The notes under the pieces were generated by a model. It did not search any database. It was given only the letters and a program-made list of their open reading frames with translations, and was not told the origin of the DNA. Below, one piece after another: positions 46,395 to 50,024 of a DNA stretch of 64,000 bases. This DNA is from Microbacterium sp. LWS13-1.2 (GTDB taxonomy: Bacteria; Actinomycetota; Actinomycetes; Actinomycetales; Microbacteriaceae). Location: contig NZ_CP151632.1 of the NCBI RefSeq assembly GCF_040144835.1, forward strand, positions 2,418,001 through 2,482,000. The letters run 5' to 3'. Both the position numbers and the translations under genes were made by a program. The stretch's first letter is position 1. Each line of letters begins with the position of its first letter.

Positions 46395-47150
46395 ATGACA
46401 GACACTGCCGACACGCTCCTCGTCGTCAGCGCCCACGCCGGCGACTTCGTCTGGCGGGCAGGCGGCGCGATCGCCGCCGCGGCCCTCCGCGGCGAGCGCG
46501 CGGTGGTCGCCTGCCTGTCGTACGGCGAGCGGGGCGAGTCGGCCAGCCAGTGGCTCGACGGCAAGTCGCTGGACGAGATCAAGCGCATCCGCCGCGACGA
46601 GGCCGAGGCCGCGGCATCCGCTCTCGGAGCCGAGATCGAATTCCTCGACCTGGGCGACTACCCGCTCGTCGAGTCGCGCGAGGCCGTCGCGCGCCTGGTC
46701 GACCTGTACCGGCGGGTGCAGCCCACGGTGGTGCTGACGCACACGCTCCGCGACCCGTACAACGGCGACCACCCCGCGGCTGCGCGCATGGCGCTCGACG
46801 CCCGCGTGCTGGCGCAGGCGATCGGCGTGGCGAACTCCGACGGCAGCTACCCCTCGAAGGACGACATCATCGGTGCCCCGCCCGTCTTCTTCTTCGAGCC
46901 GCACCAGCCCGAGCAGTGCGATTTCACCCCGAACGTCCTGCTCGACATCACCGAGGCGTTCCCGCGCAAGCGCGCGGCGATGGAGTGCCTGCCCGCCCAG
47001 AAGCACATGTGGTGGTACTACACCGACCTCGCGACCCGCCGCGGCGTGCAGCTCAAGCGCAACGCCGGCCCGAACCTGGGCCTGCCCCACGACACGATGG
47101 GCGAGGCCTACATGCGGCACTTCCCGCAGGTCACCCAGGTGCTGTCATGA
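46395..47150 (+). CDS. galB: 4-oxalomesaconate hydratase
   Basis: A PIG-L/LmbE-fold metalloenzyme of 251 residues. The zinc-site [14 protein letters not shown] motif (residues 12-25) is the GalB variant of the usual AHPDD, and [16 protein letters not shown] supplies the second ligand. GalB hydrates the enol form of 4-oxalomesaconate to 4-carboxy-4-hydroxy-2-oxoadipate, an unusual reaction for a deacetylase fold. The ATG at 46395 begins the galB-galC-galD-dioxygenase unit; the following gene starts 16 nt later. Confidence 0.88.
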
Positions 47151-47166
47151 GCGGATGGACCTTGTC

Positions 47167-47883
47167 ATGAGCGGTCCGGTGGTCGTCACCGACATCGCCC
47201 GTGCGGATGCCGCGACCGCCGACGCGCTCGGCGTGCACGGCGTCGCGACCGTGCACGAGGCCATGGGCCGGACCGGGCTCGTGGGTGCCGGCATCCGTCC
47301 CATCCAGGAGGGGGTCCGGATCGCCGGCACGGCCGTCACCGTGCTGTGTCACCCCGGCGACAACCTCATGATCCACGCGGCCGTCGAGCAGTGCCGCGCC
47401 GGCGATGTGCTGGTGGTGACGACGACGTCGCCGTCGATCGACGGGGCGTTCGGCGAGCTGTTCGCCACCGCCCTGCACGCCCGAGGTGTACGCGGACTCG
47501 TCACGACGACCGGTGTGCGCGACGTCGCGGAGCTGCGGGCGATGGGGTTCCCGGTGTGGTCGGCGGCCGTCTTCGCCCAGGGCACCGTCAAGGCCACGCC
47601 CGGCTCGGTCAACGTGCCGATCACCCTCGGTGCGGTCACGGTCGCCCCCGGCGACGTCATCGTCGCCGACGACGACGGCGTGCTGCGGGTCCCGCGGCGC
47701 GGCGCGGACGCGGCGCTCGACGCGGCGGACGCGCGCCTCGCGAAGGAGGAGGCCGACCGTGAGGCGTACCGCGGCGGCCGGCTGAGCCTCGACCGCAAGG
47801 GACTTCGGCCGCTCCTGGCCGACCTCGGCGTCGAGTACCTCACGCAGGCGGACTGGGAGGCGCAGGACCGTGGACGCGGCTGA
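47167..47883 (+). CDS. galC: 4-carboxy-4-hydroxy-2-oxoadipate aldolase
   Basis: An RraA/HMG-aldolase-fold protein of 238 residues (LigK/GalC). The active-site segments GDNLMIHAAVEQCRAGDVLVV, FGELFATALHARGVRGLVTTTGVRD and the product-enzyme hallmark FAQGTVKATPGSVNVPI are present; Arg and Asp of the GVRD motif coordinate substrate and metal. It splits the hydratase product into pyruvate and oxaloacetate. An ATG at 47155 would add four residues. Its 3' end overlaps galD by 14 bp. Confidence 0.92.
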   Translation: MSGPVVVTDIARADAATADALGVHGVATVHEAMGRTGLVGAGIRPIQEGVRIAGTAVTVLCHPGDNLMIHAAVEQCRAGDVLVVTTTSPSIDGAFGELFATALHARGVRGLVTTTGVRDVAELRAMGFPVWSAAVFAQGTVKATPGSVNVPITLGAVTVAPGDVIVADDDGVLRVPRRGADAALDAADARLAKEEADREAYRGGRLSLDRKGLRPLLADLGVEYLTQADWEAQDRGRG

Positions 47884-49036
47884 GCCGCCGGTCGCGACGG
47901 GGCCATCGGCTGCGACGGGCCCATCGGCTGCGACGGGGCCGTCGGGTGCGACGTGGCCGTCGGTCGCGGCGGCGGTGCGCGACGGCATCCGCTGCATGCT
48001 CATGCGCGGCGGCACCTCGAAGGGGGCGTACTTCCTCGCCTCGGACCTGCCGAGCGACCCCGGAGCGCGCGACGACCTGCTCCTGCGGATCATGGGGTCG
48101 CCCGACCCGCGCCAGATCGACGGCATCGGCGGCGCGCACCCGCTCACCAGCAAGGTCGCGATCGTGTCGCGCTCCGCGGTGGAGGGCATCGACGTCGACT
48201 ACCTGTTCCTGCAGATCGGCGTCGACGCCGCGACCGTGGGCGATGCACAGACCTGCGGCAACCTGCTCGCCGGCATCGGACCGTTCGCGGTCGAGCGCGG
48301 CCTCGTCCCCGCGACCGGGGAGCGCACGACGGTCCGCATCCGGCTGCTGAACACCGGCGACATCGCCACCGCCGGGTTCGCGACCATCGACGGGCGCCCC
48401 GAGTACGACGGCGACGCGGTCATCGACGGCGTTCCCGGCACGGCATCCGCGATCGAGCTCGAAGTCGGCGGCGGGGCCGATAAGCCGCTCCTTCCGACCG
48501 GCCGCGCCTCCGACGACATCGACGGCCACACGGTCACCCTCATCGACAACGGGATGCCGGTGGTGCTGCTGCGCGGCGAGGAGTTCGGCGTGGACGGGTC
48601 CGAGCCGCCCGCGGCGCTGGAGGCCGACGATGCGCTCGCGGGCCGCATCGAGCGCGTGCGGCTCGGCGCCGGTCCGCTGATGGGGCTCGGCGACGTCTCC
48701 GGGCAGACGGTGCCGAAGATGATCCTGCTCTCGCCGCCCCGCGAAGGCGGCGCGATCTCGACCCGCGCCTTCATCCCCGCCCGCGTGCACACGGCGATCG
48801 GCGTGCTGATGGCGGCATCCGTCGCCGCAGCGCTCAGGATCCCCGGTGCCGTCGGGCACGACATCGCCGGCCCGCTCACCGGAGACGAGACCCCCGTCGA
48901 GCACCCCAGCGGCACCTTCCCGTCGCGCGTCGAGGTCACGCGGGACCCCGACGGCACGTGGCGGGCCACGTCGTTCTCGCTCCGCACCGCCCGAAAGCTC
49001 TTCGACGGCATGGTCTTCCCCCGGCCGCGCCGCTGA
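47870..49036 (+). CDS. galD: 4-oxalomesaconate tautomerase (PrpF family)
   Basis: A PrpF-family isomerase of 388 residues. The core begins at residue 40 with IRCMLMRGGTSKGAYFLASD and continues with IDGIGGAHPLTSKVAIVS, both typical of GalD/PrpF. GalD converts the keto form of 4-oxalomesaconate, the direct ring-opening product, to the enol used by GalB. It starts at GTG 47870 within galC. The first 35 residues are a low-complexity repeat (ATGPSAATGPSAATGPSG) coded by near-perfect 18-nt direct repeats; a start further in (near the RDGIRCML stretch) is possible. Confidence 0.88.
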   Translation: MDAAEPPVATGPSAATGPSAATGPSGATWPSVAAAVRDGIRCMLMRGGTSKGAYFLASDLPSDPGARDDLLLRIMGSPDPRQIDGIGGAHPLTSKVAIVSRSAVEGIDVDYLFLQIGVDAATVGDAQTCGNLLAGIGPFAVERGLVPATGERTTVRIRLLNTGDIATAGFATIDGRPEYDGDAVIDGVPGTASAIELEVGGGADKPLLPTGRASDDIDGHTVTLIDNGMPVVLLRGEEFGVDGSEPPAALEADDALAGRIERVRLGAGPLMGLGDVSGQTVPKMILLSPPREGGAISTRAFIPARVHTAIGVLMAASVAAALRIPGAVGHDIAGPLTGDETPVEHPSGTFPSRVEVTRDPDGTWRATSFSLRTARKLFDGMVFPRPRR

Positions 49037-49076
49037 TCGCACCCGAGACACCCGAACACGTCAGAGAGGACGCCCC

Positions 49077-50024
49077 ATGACCGCCGACACCTCGTTCGAC
49101 GTCGCCCACCTCGCCCACGTCGAATTGCTGACCCCGAAGCCGGCGGAGAGCCGGTGGTTCTTCGAGGAGCTCCTCGCGATGCGCGTCGTCGCCGAGGACG
49201 GCGACTCGATCTACCTGCGCACGTGGGACGAGTACCAGCTGTACACGATCAAGCTCACCGCGTCGGATGCCGCGGGCGTGGGCCGCACCTCCTTCCGCGC
49301 GTCGTCGCCGCAGGCGCTGGAGCGACGCGTCGCCGCCATCGAGGCGACCGGGCACGGCACCGGATGGACCGAGGGCGACGTGGGCTGCGGGCCGACGTAC
49401 GGGTTCACCGACCCCGACGGGCACACGATGGCGATCTTCTACGAGGCCGAGCGCTACGTCGCCACCGACGACAGGCCGGCGCTCAAGAACCAGGCCTCAC
49501 GCTTCCCCGGCCGGGGCGTGAACGCCCGCCGCCTGGACCACATCAACTACCTCGCGAAGGACGTCGAGGCGAACGGGGAGTTCCTGCGCGACGCGCTCGG
49601 CATGCGCGAGTCGGAGCGCATCCGGCTCGACAACGGGAGGTTCGCGGCGTGGTGGTTCCGCTTCTCGCTGAAGTCGTACGACGTCGTGTACTCCGACGAC
49701 TGGACCAAGCACGGCAACCGCCTGCACCACATCGCGTTCGCCCCCGACACCCGTGAAGACATCCTGAAGGCCGCCGACATCTTCCTCGAGAACGGCATCC
49801 ACATCGAGTCGGGGCCGCACAAGCACGCCATCAACCAGACGTTCTTCCTCTACGTCTGGGAGCCCGGCGGCAACCGCATCGAGTTCGCCCAGGCCGGCGC
49901 CCGCCTATTGCTGGACCCCGATCAGCCCGTCGTCGAGTGGTCCGAGGCCGAGCGCAAGAAGGGCCAGGCCTGGGGCATGAAGACGATCGAGACCTTCCAC
50001 ACCCACGGCACCCCGCTGGTCTGA
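49077..50024 (+). CDS. VOC-family extradiol ring-cleavage dioxygenase
   Basis: A two-domain vicinal-oxygen-chelate dioxygenase of 315 residues, of the catechol 2,3-dioxygenase type. The iron ligands are His155 (RRLDHINYL), His218 (RLHHIAFAP) and Glu269 (GNRIEFAQ). The second-shell His250 and Tyr259 that match catechol 2,3-dioxygenase His246 and Tyr255 are kept. The C-terminal extradiol signature fits except that residue 248 is His. It follows galD by 40 nt with AGAGAGGA upstream. Since galBCD act on the opened gallate ring and no LigB-type dioxygenase is in the window, it is proposed to open gallate or 3-O-methylgallate; that is inference. Confidence 0.88.
   Translation: MTADTSFDVAHLAHVELLTPKPAESRWFFEELLAMRVVAEDGDSIYLRTWDEYQLYTIKLTASDAAGVGRTSFRASSPQALERRVAAIEATGHGTGWTEGDVGCGPTYGFTDPDGHTMAIFYEAERYVATDDRPALKNQASRFPGRGVNARRLDHINYLAKDVEANGEFLRDALGMRESERIRLDNGRFAAWWFRFSLKSYDVVYSDDWTKHGNRLHHIAFAPDTREDILKAADIFLENGIHIESGPHKHAINQTFFLYVWEPGGNRIEFAQAGARLLLDPDQPVVEWSEAERKKGQAWGMKTIETFHTHGTPLV

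Follow-up and report, generated by a model that had tools for sequence, protein, structure and literature searches.

Gallate arises as an intermediate when lignin and tannins are degraded; syringyl lignin and hydrolysable tannins are funnelled through it and through 3-O-methylgallate. Which enzyme opens this ring is the question raised by a gene cluster at positions 46395-50024, forward strand, of a 64,000-nucleotide stretch of Microbacterium sp. LWS13-1.2 (contig NZ_CP151632.1; the whole stretch is here called the window). In it galB, galC and galD are followed, head to tail, by a gene for a two-module VOC extradiol dioxygenase:

46395..47150, +, galB, 4-oxalomesaconate (OMA) hydratase of the PIG-L family (PF02585, 83.9 bits; 5cgz)
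47167..47883, +, galC/ligK, 4-carboxy-4-hydroxy-2-oxoadipate (CHA) aldolase (NF006731; 3noj, 227 bits)
47870..49036, +, galD, OMA tautomerase, GTG start (NF033377; 6p3j)
49077..50024, +, VOC (type I) dioxygenase, proposed gallate or 3-O-methylgallate dioxygenase, ATG to stop, 315 amino acids

The described openers of gallate and 3-O-methylgallate are of the LigB class in the available text of three reports (PMC12314914, PMC4250580, PMC3962378). GalA of Pseudomonas putida KT2440 and DesB of Sphingobium SYK-6 hold the same pathway position as the VOC protein; according to excerpts of the source papers they supply OMA to GalD-GalB-GalC or LigU-LigJ-LigK (PMC12314914) and are LigB-class (type II) enzymes (PMC3962378, PMC4250580), with a fold unrelated to the VOC (type I) fold of the window protein. 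The original prediction was that the VOC protein opens gallate or 3-O-methylgallate in place of a LigB-type enzyme. On the sequence evidence gathered here this is probably correct (about 0.83), since no LigB match was found in the complete genome, the VOC gene is linked to galBCD in both actinobacteria and alphaproteobacteria with differing gene orders, all 47 VOC-carrying genomes of the genus have GalD or LigJ, and the three of these that lack GalD have LigJ, in one case with LigJ, LigK and LigI beside the VOC gene.

The LigB family model PF02900 gave no match at E <= 0.001 in the whole single-contig genome (4,326,447 bases, 99.99% complete); of the 14 known genomes in the control search, 4 gave a match. 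The absence of a LigB-class dioxygenase that had been noted for the window therefore extends to the entire genome, where the search for a contradicting LigAB or DesB homologue returned none, and a LigB-type opener elsewhere in this genome was rejected on this result.

Re-reading of the window's open reading frames (ORFs) confirmed the coordinates and spacing first given for the cluster: a 16-nt gap between galB and galC, a 14-nt overlap of galC and galD, and a 40-nt gap between galD and the VOC gene. GalB is a PIG-L type OMA hydratase, with 4-oxalomesaconate hydratase 5cgz as its best PDB match (258 bits, residues 8-250); it reached no NCBIfam equivalog cut-off, and its identity rests on PF02585 and 5cgz. 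GalC exceeds one of two curated cut-offs for CHA aldolases, passing NF006731 (304.5 bits, cut-off 179) but missing TIGR02798 (273.2 bits, cut-off 304.5). GalD scores above the NF033377 cut-off for OMA tautomerases (449.5 bits against 440) and gives 358.7 bits to oxalomesaconate Delta-isomerase 6p3j. As the family model begins at residue 45 of GalD, translation could possibly start at the GTG at 47975, which would turn the overlap with galC into a gap; short GC-rich direct repeats (GPSAATGPSAATGPSGAT) at about 47890-47965, in the GalD N-terminus, also leave the start codon uncertain.

In the proposed pathway, His155, His218 and Glu269 of the VOC protein would hold an iron that chelates two adjacent hydroxyls of gallate, and O2 on the same metal would be inserted into the C4-C5 bond to give OMA. 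This would be tautomerised by GalD, hydrated by GalB and split by GalC into pyruvate and oxaloacetate. Gallate is moderately favoured as the main substrate, and preferred over 3-O-methylgallate because ligM, described below, is divergent from galB and because this genome gave no match to LigI (searched without a positive control) or to LigJ (E <= 1e-60).

Direct opening of 3-O-methylgallate by the VOC protein is unlikely, and what weight it has is contained in that given above to the VOC protein as opener of either compound. In this case the product, 4-carboxy-2-hydroxy-6-methoxy-6-oxohexa-2,4-dienoate (CHMOD) or, after cyclisation, 2-pyrone-4,6-dicarboxylate (PDC), would be converted to OMA by an unrecognised esterase. 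Such a route has a parallel in Pseudomonas NGC7, which opens 3-O-methylgallate directly and continues through GalD-GalB-GalC (in an excerpt of PMC12314914), and in one Microbacterium genome (G147) the gene for a PDC hydrolase, LigI, stands beside that of the VOC protein. It is opposed by the presence beside galB of LigM, which turns 3-O-methylgallate into gallate and which occurs at more than 50% identity in 60 of the 80 loci described below, and by the lack of a LigI match in this genome in the search just mentioned.

Distribution of the VOC gene, the gal genes and LigB

The co-occurrence of these genes was profiled across 198 genomes of the genus, with thresholds of E <= 1e-60 for the VOC protein and LigJ and more than 425 bits for GalD, which served as the gal marker, GalB being left out of this search. 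The VOC gene was present in 47 genomes and a strong GalD in 46, a count that leaves out five genomes in which GalD-like matches reached 152-314 bits; both occurred together in 44, and were adjacent in every one of them. All 47 VOC genomes thus carry a marker of the OMA pathway, GalD in 44 and LigJ in the remaining three (G081, G147 and G150). In G147 the place of galBCD beside the VOC gene is taken by LigJ (546.7 bits to the OMA hydratase 2gwg), LigK (406.7 bits to TIGR02798, cut-off 304.5) and LigI (334 bits to the PDC hydrolase 4d8l), and the only LigB match in this genome is weak (72.8 bits). Given this LigI neighbour, the VOC enzyme may serve a PDC route as well.

GalD or LigJ was detected in 69 genomes, of which 47 have the VOC gene and 21 a LigB match of at least 230 bits (a line drawn after the scores were seen); two of these have both, and three of the 69 have neither (G004, G096 and G157). 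No genus genome outside these 69 had the VOC gene or a LigB match of at least 230 bits. The hypergeometric figure for the VOC gene among marker genomes is 6.6e-29, which overstates the significance because the genomes are related. Some LigB match was present in 48 of the 198 genomes, including 5 of the 46 with GalD, so that 41 GalD genomes had none.

The LigB class of at least 230 bits we take to belong to the protocatechuate 4,5 pathway, since all 21 genomes concerned have LigJ and since two Sinomonas genomes have a LigB of the same score beside LigI-like and LigC-like genes, the latter named by sequence reading. Genome G137 was considered as a case of opener exchange at the same locus and rejected, its cluster being of the protocatechuate 4,5 type: it holds LigB (NF009903, 467 bits, cut-off 317), a GalD/LigU of 532 bits, relatives of the LigI, LigJ and LigK of G147, and a LigC named by sequence reading only.

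A wider set of loci was obtained by scanning a species-representative genome collection and keeping the best 80 of 93 VOC relatives. Linkage was scored when galB, galC and galD lay within 6 kb of the VOC gene on the same strand; with several loci ending at contig edges, the complete set was linked in 55 of the 80 loci and part of it in seven. The linked loci include Microbacterium, Leucobacter, Brevibacterium and Arthrobacter (Micrococcales), but also Neorhizobium and Rhizobium (Rhizobiaceae) and two Microvirga. Gene order differs among them, being galB-C-D-VOC in Micrococcales and VOC-galB-C-D in Rhizobiaceae, followed further downstream by ligM and a MetF-like gene, while the Microvirga loci read galD-galB-galC-(DUF1932 dehydrogenase)-VOC (L054) and galD-galB-galC-VOC (L069). 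Occurrence in 55 of 80 loci and in two phyla indicates a linkage beyond chance.

A CHA aldolase scored above the cut-off in all 23 genomes examined for it; the control search passed the cut-off in 1 of 14 genomes. This set, of which 22 carry the VOC gene, consisted of G081, G147, G150 and G096, together with 14 of the 18 loci without linkage and 5 of the 7 partial loci.

Several observations weigh against a VOC enzyme standing in for LigB. The VOC gene has no galBCD nearby in 18 of the 80 loci, the usual second-shell histidine of extradiol enzymes is absent from the protein, and the genus counts are not independent, owing to shared ancestry. Some LigB match accompanies the VOC gene in 7 of the 47 Microbacterium genomes, and when 48 VOC genomes from the set of loci were searched, 28 gave a LigB match above the cut-off: 9 of 24 in actinobacteria, 10 of 12 in Microvirga and 9 of 11 in other alphaproteobacteria (19 of 23 alphaproteobacterial in all), with no match in the single Chloroflexota genome. 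Outside Microbacterium the VOC enzyme may therefore be one of several openers, and the replacement is cleanest in this genus; the LigB of the two Sinomonas VOC genomes, the only two of the 28 that were classified, is of the protocatechuate 4,5 type. In addition, searches of G096, which has galBCD, gave no close match to the VOC protein, to LigB or to intradiol enzymes; the sole VOC relative there has 32% identity and is HpaD-like at the residues checked, which points to a possible further ring-opener. By sequence reading, galBCD in G096 (locus L086) is followed by a DUF1932-like dehydrogenase gene and transporter-like genes.

Also to be counted here is the presence near the start of the window (about 1.5-2.5 kb) of two matches to PF00775, the pcaGH-type intradiol dioxygenase family. 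Protocatechuate 3,4-dioxygenase PcaGH can cleave gallate or 3-O-methylgallate slowly, and a strong PF00775 match was found in 43 of the 46 GalD genomes, as would be expected if PcaGH opened gallate and the VOC protein acted on another catechol. However, strong PF00775 matches also occur in 37 genomes without GalD, as against only three such genomes for the VOC gene, and the window genes lie about 44 kb from galB, whereas the VOC gene is always next to galD where both are present. This distribution across the genus led us to reject PcaGH as the main opener, and the explanation is quite improbable.

Fold and active-site residues of the VOC protein

The VOC protein contains VOC-type Pfam domains only, with PF00903 matched in two stretches, and it has the two modules and the His-His-Glu triad of type I extradiol dioxygenases; it does not belong to the LigB class by PF02900. 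Its score to the catechol 2,3-dioxygenase model TIGR03211 is slightly below the equivalog cut-off (308.1 bits against 320.2). The predicted fold matches catechol 2,3-dioxygenases across residues 4-315, with alkylcatechol and catechol 2,3-dioxygenases as the closest of the fold matches listed. The model, built from a 36-row alignment, has a mean predicted local distance difference test (pLDDT) score of 85.3, falling below 50 at residues 134-137 and 298-307; prediction from the single sequence gave 33.9. The nearest relative among the matches listed is from Microbacterium psychrotolerans, with 98% identity.

The protein had been described as keeping the full catalytic set of extradiol enzymes. 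This holds for the metal ligands H155, H218 and E269 and for H250 and Y259, which are identical in all 81 sequences compared (the window protein and the 80 loci), but not for the second-shell histidine: the residue aligned with His200 of homoprotocatechuate 2,3-dioxygenase (HPCD) is Tyr201, a tyrosine in all 81 sequences and a histidine in the seven VOC paralogues compared. Arg293 is likewise invariant in the clade and is replaced by another residue in the six paralogues whose alignment reaches it. Members of the Tyr201 clade come from Micrococcales, Rhizobiaceae, Microvirga and a single Chloroflexota assembly.

HPCD (HpaD) shares with the VOC protein the two-module VOC fold and an aligned metal triad, and differs from it at His200 and at Arg243, which is Ser245 here. 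AphC and the RHA1 alkylcatechol 2,3-dioxygenase (7q2a, 3lm4) also have a histidine at the Tyr201 position. The closest solved sequence is 9wgj (351 bits, residues 4-314), deposited as a catechol 1,2-dioxygenase, which has a KSYD motif with the tyrosine, as in the window protein; it was not among the 50 fold matches listed, and no paper naming it was found in the openly licensed PMC literature. The one other VOC extradiol paralogue of the genome (E <= 0.001) has 32% identity, is HpaD-like and keeps the HPCD-type histidine and arginine. Protocatechuate 2,3-dioxygenase PraA is a VOC-type enzyme that opens a carboxylated diphenol, cleaving the 2,3 bond to give an aldehyde, whereas the galBCD context here requires 4,5 cleavage.

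It is highly improbable that the VOC protein is just an ordinary 2,3-dioxygenase of catechol or alkylcatechols with galBCD as neighbours by chance or from another branch, as might be read from its near-threshold TIGR03211 score and its closest listed folds. The products of galB, galC and galD are not semialdehyde-processing enzymes, their linkage to the VOC gene recurs in two phyla with differing orders, and the paralogues differ from the clade at Tyr201 and, where their alignment reaches it, at Arg293.

A more specific proposal is that the VOC clade evolved the opening of gallate or 3-O-methylgallate independently of LigB and works without a second-shell histidine, with Tyr201, perhaps aided by the substrate's third hydroxyl, handling the proton and O2 step. 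This would couple a non-homologous replacement to an altered extradiol mechanism; we consider the odds of it to be about even. A tree with 95 VOC rows groups the clade's 58 actinobacterial rows with 100/100 support; the depth of the tyrosine clade is not fixed by this tree, which has a midpoint root only, unsettled bootstrap values and long branches that meet.

No VOC gallate or 3-O-methylgallate dioxygenase was found in the openly licensed PMC literature; as most subscription journals and preprints lie outside it, the novelty of such an opener is provisional. If the reading of the VOC protein as ring-opener is correct, it would represent a non-homologous replacement, and the tyrosine-for-histidine change would offer a test of which second-shell residue extradiol enzymes need. 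It would also give a function to proteins now annotated as "catechol 2,3-dioxygenase" or "VOC family protein" in several bacterial groups, and a single-gene alternative opener for lignin-funnelling work. A 2025 survey of syringate-catabolic genes counted mgaAB/ligAB/desZ/desB/galA as openers in the text available to us (PMC12314914), a list by which VOC-reliant organisms would be scored as missing the step. The VOC enzyme would supply the missing opener for syringate and gallate degraders scored as incomplete by such LigB-based surveys.

Neighbouring genes and a possible supply of gallate

The 8 kb upstream of the cluster hold genes for a DesA-like protein, two IclR regulators, a dehydrogenase with DUF1932 and a tannase-family esterase; ligM and galB are transcribed divergently:

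38579..39982, +, DesA/LigM-like O-demethylase, possible syringate O-demethylase (below both model cut-offs)
40303..41232, +, IclR regulator, PcaR/PcaU/PobR type (PF01614, PF09339; TIGR02431 139.1 bits, below the cut-off of 284.75)
41244..42023, +, NAD-binding dehydrogenase with DUF1932 (PF03446 and PF09130)
42179..43801, +, tannase/feruloyl-esterase family protein (PF07519, 353.8 bits; scan begun at 42470)
43871..44731, -, IclR regulator, PcaR/PcaU/PobR type (PF01614, PF09339; TIGR02431 130.8 bits, below the same cut-off)
44842..46374, -, ligM, tetrahydrofolate-dependent vanillate/3-O-methylgallate O-demethylase (NF047885; 5tl4, 705 bits)
46344..46355, no strand, candidate operator ATTGTAGACAAT, a palindrome upstream of galB with the core TTGTNNACAA

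LigM scores well above the NF047885 cut-off (894.1 bits against 580), and the real start of its gene is probably at 46248. The DesA-like protein falls short of both NF047633 (474.4 bits, cut-off 800) and NF047885 (431.6 bits, cut-off 580), so it did not qualify as DesA. A second LigM-like ORF at 21784-23196 lies beside MetF-like and PurU-like ORFs, these two named by sequence reading. This gene set fits tetrahydrofolate-dependent O-demethylation feeding the gallate pathway: gallate would be formed from syringate by two such reactions, carried out by the DesA-like enzyme and then by LigM. Galloyl esters cleaved by the tannase-family protein would be an alternative source, suggested by the presence of its gene, which lies between the two IclR genes. 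The start of this gene at 42179 was taken by sequence reading, and its product has a signal-like N-terminus.

LigM also forms protocatechuate from vanillate, as stated in an excerpt of PMC12314914, and the lower-pathway enzymes encoded here are common to protocatechuate 4,5-cleavage, so that the VOC protein could be imagined as a VOC counterpart of LigAB acting on the 4,5 bond of protocatechuate. This is the least probable of the alternatives considered, as the window has PcaGH-type genes, LigI gave no match in the genome (again without a positive control), and the four-gene operon lacks a LigC-type dehydrogenase, a role for which the DUF1932 dehydrogenase 4 kb upstream could still serve. This dehydrogenase resembles 6-phosphogluconate dehydrogenase, and its kind accompanies gal operons in several lineages. 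Relatives with PF03446 and PF09130 were found inside VOC-gal operons of two loci, L054 (9153-9986) and L067 (13601-14473). In L086, sequence reading alone places a similar DUF1932 gene (9958-10791) beside the gal operon.

Adjoining the VOC gene on its other side is a cobalamin-independent methionine-synthase-like gene (PRK06520; 50278-51390). Similar genes, with about 53% identity, also stand beside the VOC gene in Microvirga loci without galBCD (L055, L058-L062 and others), and the protein is perhaps involved in the uptake of methyl groups freed by O-demethylation.

The palindrome at 46344 is a candidate operator of the gal-VOC operon, and we take it to resemble operators of the GntR or IclR type. 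In 24 of the 55 linked loci, many of them close relatives, its core TTGTNNACAA lies upstream of galB at a distance of no more than about 160 bp, a place where the Rhizobiaceae and Microvirga loci among the 55 all lack it; overall there are 35 sites in the 1,083,523 bases of these loci, and one in the window. The intergenic regions at 40180-40310 and 50025-50260 contain common motifs of the GGTCGTTGAGCGAG and CGAGACGAAACG type, partly in both orientations.

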